From contig JAHFPO010000001.1 of NCBI GenBank assembly GCA_023266695.1, forward strand, positions 15,825 to 49,870: DNA of 34,046 bases, given 5' to 3'. This document shows positions 29,501 through 30,806 of this stretch, in pieces; position 1 is the stretch's first letter; every line of letters starts with the position of its first letter. The stretch comes from Hyphomicrobiales bacterium (GTDB lineage: Bacteria > Pseudomonadota > Alphaproteobacteria > Rhizobiales > Xanthobacteraceae). The translations under genes and the position numbers were made by a program. The notes beneath the pieces are model-generated. The model searched no databases, was not told the origin of the DNA, and worked only from the letters and a program-made list of their open reading frames with translations.

Positions 29501-29836
29501 ATGACTTATATCGTCAACGATAGCTGCATTCGTTGCAAATACATGGATTGCGTCGAGGTGTGCCCCGTGGATTGCTTCTACGAGGGCGAGAACATGCTCG
29601 TCATCCACCCCGACGAATGTATCGATTGCGGCGTGTGCGAGCCCGAATGCCCGGTCGATGCGATCAAGCCCGATACCGTTCCGGGGTTGGAGAAATGGCT
29701 CGCGCTCAATGCCGAATACGCCAAGATCTGGCCCAATATCACGGTGAAGCGCGACCCCCCGCCGGACGCCAAGGAATGGGAGGGAAAGCCGGGCAAGGAA
29801 GTCCAGTTCTCGCCCAATCCTGGACAGGGAGACTGA
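29501..29836 (+). CDS. fdxA: FdxA-type ferredoxin (3Fe-4S/4Fe-4S)
   Basis: [59 protein letters not shown]. Confidence 0.97.
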
Positions 29837-29879: not shown

Positions 29880-29915
29880 CCTTGCCGTCATCGCGCTGCG
29901 GTAAGGCTTTGATTT
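29880..29915 (+). terminator. Probable intrinsic terminator of fdxA
   Basis: CCTTGCCG-tcatcgcgctg-CGGTAAGG (8 bp, one G-U) followed by CTTTGATTTTT. Confidence 0.5.
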
Positions 29916-29936
29916 TTGGCCAAATTGTGCTATATT
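29909..29936 (+). promoter_or_regulatory. Candidate sigma-70-type promoter for carD leader/sRNA
   Basis: TTGATT - 16 nt - TATATT. Confidence 0.5.
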
Positions 29937-29968
29937 ACAAAGACATCGAGCGTTTCCGCCTGGCCGCG

Positions 29969-29990
29969 AGCTCCTTCGGGAGCTGTTTTT
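29969..29990 (+). terminator. UUCG-tetraloop terminator/attenuator-like hairpin in carD leader
   Basis: AGCTCC-TTCG-GGAGCT followed by GTTTTT. Confidence 0.65.
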
Positions 29991-30166
29991 GTCGCAATCC
30001 GAGCCGTCGCGATCGCCTTTGGACGCCCTTGCCACTTGTGGGGGCGGGGGAAATGCGTCGCCCCGGAGACCGGCGGAACCGGTCGGGGTGGTGTTCAGGT
30101 GCGTCGCTAGAGCGCATCGAAAGTTGAGTAGCCCGGCGTGAGTCCGGGCAAAGGAGCAGGGTGCCA

Positions 30167-30748
30167 ATGCCGACCAAGAAGACCGCGCCGACCCGTCAGA
30201 GCCACAGCCGCCAGGGCTTCCGGACCCACGAACGTATCGTCTATCCGGCCCACGGCGTTGGCCAGATCGTGCGCATCGAAGAACAGGAAGTCGCGGGGTT
30301 CAAGCTCGAACTCTTCGTCATCAACTTCGCCAAGGACAAGATGACGCTCCGCGTGCCGACCTCGAAGGCGGCCTCCGTGGGCATGCGCAAGCTCGCCCCG
30401 CCGGAGGTGTTGAAGAAGGCGCTCGACACCCTCAAGGGCCGCGCGCGCATCAAGCGCACCATGTGGAGCCGGCGTGCGCAGGAATACGAAGCCAAGATCA
30501 ATTCCGGCGATCTCATCGCCATCGCCGAGGTGGTGCGCGATCTGTTTCGCTCGGAGAGTCAGCCGGAGCAGTCCTACAGCGAGCGCCAGCTCTACGAGGC
30601 GGCGCTCGACCGGATGGTGCGCGAACTCTCCGCCGTCCAGGACATCACCGAGACCGAGGCGGCGAAGCTGATCGAGACCAATCTCCTGAAGGGGCCGCGC
30701 CGGACTTCGAAGTCCGCCGATGACGACGTCCGCGAAGAGGCGGCCTGA
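30167..30748 (+). CDS. carD: CarD family transcriptional regulator
   Basis: RTHERIVYPAHGVGQIVRIEEQEVAGFKLELFVINFAKDKMTLRVPTSKAASVGMRKLA; SD AAGGAG at 30151-30156. Confidence 0.96.
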   Translation: MPTKKTAPTRQSHSRQGFRTHERIVYPAHGVGQIVRIEEQEVAGFKLELFVINFAKDKMTLRVPTSKAASVGMRKLAPPEVLKKALDTLKGRARIKRTMWSRRAQEYEAKINSGDLIAIAEVVRDLFRSESQPEQSYSERQLYEAALDRMVRELSAVQDITETEAAKLIETNLLKGPRRTSKSADDDVREEAA

Positions 30749-30780
30749 AATCGATCCACGGACATTCCCGCGACGAATGA

Positions 30781-30806
30781 GGCCCGGCTGAACGCCGGGC
30801 CTTTTT
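30781..30806 (+). terminator. Intrinsic terminator after carD, overlapping the 3' end of the convergent M48 gene
   Basis: GGCCCGGC-tgaac-GCCGGGCC-TTTTT. Confidence 0.9.

Follow-up and report, generated by a model that had tools for sequence, protein, structure and literature searches.

The carD leader analysed here is predicted to carry, in its 5′ part, a promoter-proximal intrinsic terminator that acts mainly as a constitutive set-point attenuator, a reading to which a probability of about 0.6 is given. The leader lies in a stretch of 34,046 nucleotides from a Hyphomicrobiales bacterium (the window). We infer its start site, an actual and partial termination, and an effect on the level of CarD: RNA polymerase would initiate at ~29943, and a fraction of the polymerases would stop at a U-run near 29990, releasing an RNA of ~48 nt, while the remaining ones would read through to give an mRNA with a leader of ~224 nt, from which CarD would be translated. 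Early termination would limit carD expression at a fixed level, mainly constitutively, and many carD transcripts may end early.

The promoter, the hairpins and the Shine-Dalgarno (SD) sequence were all found exactly where an earlier note on this DNA had placed them, so that its observation is confirmed. Its interpretation, either a short independent RNA or premature termination combined with occlusion of the ribosome-binding site, is partly supported: a promoter followed by a terminator-type hairpin whose position is kept across the order stood, and the occlusion did not.

Gene context and promoter

The carD (cdnL) gene occupies positions 30167..30748 of the + strand, with an ATG start at 30167, and encodes 193 aa with matches to the Pfam domains CarD_C (E=1.2e-26) and CarD_TRCF_RID (E=2.5e-12). 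Its 5′ neighbour is fdxA (29501-29836), which encodes a 4Fe-4S ferredoxin; the gap between both genes is 330 nt, and the gene order is retained in nearly all the relatives examined. The CarD of the window ends in Ala-Ala (30740-30748), resembling the C-terminus of Caulobacter CdnL that PMC5324124 ties to proteolysis. In many family genomes the carD open frames span 250-450 codons, compared to 206 in the window, and four loci (L006, L009, L023, L036) appear to extend the CarD core at its N-terminus by a Lys/Ala-rich segment with a GTG start, in front of which stands a hairpin GGCGTG...CACGC. Downstream of carD, at 30779-30803, there is a strong terminator with a stem of 10 bp and a T-run.

A sigma-70 (RpoD-type) promoter, TGTGCTATATT, of the form TTGATT-16-TATATT with an extended -10, was located by motif scan and conservation at 29909..29936 (+ strand), with TGTGC immediately 5′ of TATATT. 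As the earlier note had proposed, it is near consensus; a scan of 2.5 kb turned up no other sigma-70-like site (1 vs 0.3 expected), and 84% of the promoter columns are identical among the five genomes of the window's genus. The promoter is conserved across Hyphomicrobiales and could be recognised in leaders taken one per family. In type it matches the motifs described for RpoD in B. japonicum, which have TTG-N16-18-TATA and the extended -10 GCTATA (PMC4842269). The putative transcription start at ~29943 follows from the promoter spacing, and with the U-run it delimits the predicted short RNA (29943..29990, + strand, ~48 nt).

The suggestion that TTGT-N8-ACAA forms an operator around the -10 found no support in the window, its own arms pairing over 4 bp vs 4.07 with swapped arms. 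Long inverted repeats over the carD -10 were seen in Bradyrhizobium-type loci (L036, L052, L060 and others) and in Methylobacterium (L013, L018), such as AATGTGC-N8-GCACATT and GATTGTG-ATA-CACAATC, with spacing and arms that differ among clades.

A word, CAGUCGAU, recurs at the start site in several clades, and words resembling it stand there in L020, L069, L041, L255, L259, L272 and L274. The complement of such words (AUCGACUG/AUCGGCUG) was observed further along the leader, in some loci near the carD start. A pairing between the 5′ end (AGUCGA) and a word close to where carD begins was rejected as a general feature, its mean z being ~0 overall; it was suggestive in single loci (L041, L255, L259, L272, L274) and, by eye, in the Bosea-type loci L020 and L069.

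A hairpin with a U-run behind the promoter

The hairpin P2, AGCTCC-TTCG-GGAGCT-G-TTTTT, was assigned by sequence and comparison to positions 29969..29990 of the + strand. It consists of a 6-bp stem with 4 GC pairs and is separated by one base from a run of five U, as in a promoter-proximal intrinsic terminator, with an energy of ~-8.2 kcal/mol vs -21.0 kcal/mol for the terminator 3′ of carD. Four terminator-like sites were found in 2.5 kb vs 1.7 expected, and fold energies gave no signal for the whole leader (z = +0.17) or for the 57-nt 5′ element (z = +0.28). Judged from the single sequence, the hairpins of the window are no better than chance.

Comparison makes the hairpin and U-run at 29969-29990 the sole leader hairpin that is significant. 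Among the five genomes of the genus, 68% of the columns of P2 and its U-run are identical, compared to 33% between the promoter and start site and the P2 stem and 14% directly downstream, so that the conserved block stops at the U-run. In L004 the stem reads AGCCCT-TTCG-GGGGCT, with a U-A to C-G change and also a C-G to U-G change. The UUCG hairpin that the earlier note had read as a terminator signature is thus present, conserved in the genus and, as described below, kept in position across the order.

By inspection of the window, no mutually exclusive or strong antiterminator was seen: the only alternative pairing of the P2 stem joins GAGC (29948-29951) to GCTC (29970-29973), has 4 bp and is missing in L003. 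Nor does the window have an ATG, GTG or TTG in the interval from the putative start at 29943 to the U-run. Because the window showed neither a competing antiterminator nor an ORF of the leader that crosses the hairpin, a set-point attenuator is preferred to a switch. A leader-peptide attenuator was likewise discarded for the relatives, some of which have AUGs upstream of the hairpin, as inspection showed the frame changing from one close species to the next. In agreement with the earlier note, which had recognised no known riboswitch or other RNA, no Rfam family matched at its gathering score in the window and 15 relatives, the lone signal being a chance CRISPR-DR match on the minus strand (E=1.9).

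Conservation of the element in the family and the order

The family set comprised 174 carD leaders, 113 of them non-redundant and 79 under a stricter redundancy. These leaders are related and the counts are not independent, and the expected numbers depend on the hairpin rule used and on composition-only shuffles. Among the 113 leaders, GCUCC...GGAGC was present within the first 100 nt in 72 (2.7 expected) and a terminator-like site in 47 (2.0 expected from mononucleotide shuffles). Under the stricter redundancy, a hairpin with a U-run ≤110 nt past the -10 was found in 40/79 leaders vs 4.0 expected from dinucleotide shuffles, compared to control counts of 5/79 upstream of the -35 (4.5 expected) and 4/79 in the region 110-220 nt downstream (2.0 expected).

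When 120 family genomes were scanned for the pattern GCTCC-N-GGAGC-N-ATTTTT, 41 matches were obtained in 40 genomes, and only 4 with the reversed pattern used as a control. At carD lay 35 of the 41 matches, 23 placed there by coordinates and 12 of the remaining 18 by tblastn of their flanks, including one (L202) in which fdxA and the promoter are present and carD is cut off by the contig end; the other 6 resemble ordinary terminators elsewhere. In the family, the scan showed the element to be almost single-copy in each genome and linked to carD. The window's own hairpin falls outside this strict pattern because the spacer before its U-run has no A. The U-run has been lost in several clades (Bradyrhizobium, Ancylobacter and genus g24), and Ancylobacter and g24 keep the GCUCC/GGAGC hairpin without it. 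Among the cultured relatives, Pseudolabrys sp. Root1462 (L012) has the hairpin.

The order sample (L248-L287) held mostly one genome per family and gave 29 leaders with a confident promoter. A hairpin with a U-run ≤110 nt past the -10 was detected in 12 of these vs 1.6 expected, and in the controls in 3/29 upstream of the -35 (0.9 expected) and 3/29 at 110-220 nt downstream (1.0 expected). With a slightly looser rule the count was 13/29, the hairpin beginning 28-66 nt past the -10 (median 39), and two of the 13 have poor U-runs (L264, AAACTTTGT; L283, CGAAGTTTC). The stems are unrelated across the order, as illustrated by CCTCCCAACGGAGG-T7, CGTGCCGCAAGGCACG-AT7, CCGCTTCCTCCCGAAGCGG-AT7 and GCCGCTCCCGCTGGAGCGGT-T5; in these 12 of 29 families, position was held while the stem sequence changed. 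In other orders, the element was found in 2 leaders vs 0.4 expected, in a small sample (n=11). Mainly because the position is conserved order-wide and the stems are unrelated, a terminator is preferred to a sequence-specific binding site, and this pattern favours a real intrinsic terminator as the probable function.

A possible outer helix around the U-run

Covariation in the family points to a possible outer helix, P1, around the U-run, which in the window would pair GCGA (29966-29969) with TCGC (29992-29995; helix 29966..29995, + strand). Many different partner pairs were found in the family, among them CCCGA/UCGGG, GCCGC/GCGGC, GCUUCGA/UCGAAGU (L129), GCCACCGG/UCGGUGGC (L193) and CGCUCCGA/UCGGAGCG (L109), with up to 8-10 bp and often taking the last U of the run. 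As the MAFFT alignment had misplaced the outer helix, P1 was tested by swapping partners: the duplexes of own partners had -9.5 kcal/mol compared to -7.6 kcal/mol for swapped ones, and 0/5000 permutations were as good, in a set of related sequences that are not independent. P1 was present in the lowest-energy fold of 5/8 relatives folded alone (L024, L193, L007, L129, L146), with z from -0.8 to -2.8. In the window, P1 appears in the lowest-energy short fold, yet it is only ~0.01 probable in the full-length fold, and in the window's own genus it is neither conserved nor supported.

P1 can form only once the polymerase is past the U-run, and for this reason it is taken to report selection on the read-through RNA. 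Its covariation shows that in the window's family this RNA is probably also under selection. Where P1 covaries, the U-run might instead be a structural bulge.

The leader downstream of the element

The middle hairpin, GACCGG-N5-CCGGTC flanked by CCCC/GGGG (30061..30088, + strand), is paired in the lowest-energy leader fold of the window, and its stem is kept in L002, where G-C replaces an A-U pair. By sequence it is unconserved past the closest sister genome, only 4% of its columns being identical among the five genomes of the genus, and a role for it is not supported by these comparisons.

A further hairpin, GCCCGG-CGTGAGT-CCGGGC (30131..30149, + strand), precedes the SD sequence AAAGGAG of carD (30150..30156, + strand), of which AAGGAG takes up 30151-30156. 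A hairpin is there in 5/5 genus genomes, 38% of the columns of hairpin plus SD are identical in them, and its base pairs are 97-99% probable by partition function. Occlusion of the ribosome-binding site by this hairpin, as had been proposed, found no support in the fold: the stem ends before the SD, which lies outside it and whose AAAGG is 79-99% unpaired in the same calculation.

Discussion

The 6-bp stem is short for a terminator, several clades have lost the U-run, and P1 covaries in the family; these points speak against termination. In a rival reading, which is unlikely, the carD mRNA would begin with a structured element (P2, a U-rich bulge and P1) that sets mRNA stability or binds a protein such as Hfq or RNase E, with termination weak or absent. 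In its favour are a helix that encloses the U-run and covaries as described, and a hairpin kept in some clades without the U-run; P1 is, however, unsupported in the window's own genus, and the 5-8 U behind unrelated stems across the order fit a terminator better. It is very improbable that the hairpin serves mainly to end fdxA transcripts as their 3′ terminator, sited behind the carD promoter. In the family set, the stretch from fdxA to this promoter holds about as many terminators as chance would give (5/79 vs 4.5 expected), so that in many cases the leader hairpin is the first one met after fdxA, but a hairpin in this place would halt carD transcripts as well, and its presence shows no anticorrelation with that of a terminator in the stretch from fdxA to the promoter (Fisher p = 0.62).

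The promoter and terminator could also form the gene of an independent trans-acting small RNA, with read-through into carD being secondary. Leader-derived small RNAs are known in Alphaproteobacteria (UpsM, S. meliloti rnTrpL), the conserved block of the genus spans promoter to U-run, and CAGUCGAU recurs at the start site in several clades. Nevertheless, the 33% of identical columns between the start site and the stem is little for a seed, the element always adjoins carD, and transcription starts >200 nt upstream of cdnL are reported in C. crescentus and S. meliloti (PMC5324124), so that long mRNA leaders exist; we regard such a gene as very doubtful. A broader version, with attenuation of carD across the order tuned by the state of the polymerase (CarD, ppGpp or NTP) and a released short RNA acting in trans, is quite unlikely; if true, early termination would determine how much there is of a polymerase factor that acts globally. 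The preferred reading remains a mainly constitutive terminator in the leader. With a conserved terminator-type element beside the carD promoter, the long alphaproteobacterial 5′-UTR of cdnL (PMC5324124) becomes testable as a control by early termination and as the source of a short RNA, for a protein, CarD/CdnL, that supports normal growth as well as rRNA transcription.

Relation to known systems

In the open-licence papers searched, no description of a terminator in a carD leader was found. The nearest known architecture is UpsM of R. sphaeroides, the 268-nt 5′-UTR of the dcw gene cluster, in which a Rho-independent terminator yields a leader RNA and the dcw mRNA is made by read-through (PMC5089854). 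Both are long alphaproteobacterial leaders with a terminator, predicted from sequence in the case of carD, and they differ in gene, order and sequence. In S. meliloti, the trp leader terminator releases the short trans-acting RNA rnTrpL (Melior 2019, as cited in PMC7143759). It is a leader terminator in the same order as the one predicted here, whereas trp attenuation uses a leader peptide and the window has no start codon between the putative transcription start and the U-run. For Methylosinus sporium 5, of the same order, a Term-seq study lists 62 cis-regulatory 3′ ends located in 5′-UTRs (PMC12403871).

For cdnL itself, 5′-UTRs of 233 nt in C. crescentus and 266 nt in S. meliloti were determined by 5′-RACE, with a role stated to be unknown (PMC5324124, available part). 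The predicted leader of the window (~224 nt) is similarly long and belongs to the same gene; a terminator-type element is predicted here, and no terminator or structured element is named for the cdnL 5′-UTR in that part of the paper. Finally, CarD of R. sphaeroides represses its own promoter (Henry 2021, as cited in PMC11034885). Both cases place the control of carD at its own promoter region, but that repression acts at the promoter, whereas the control proposed for the carD leader would act at termination.
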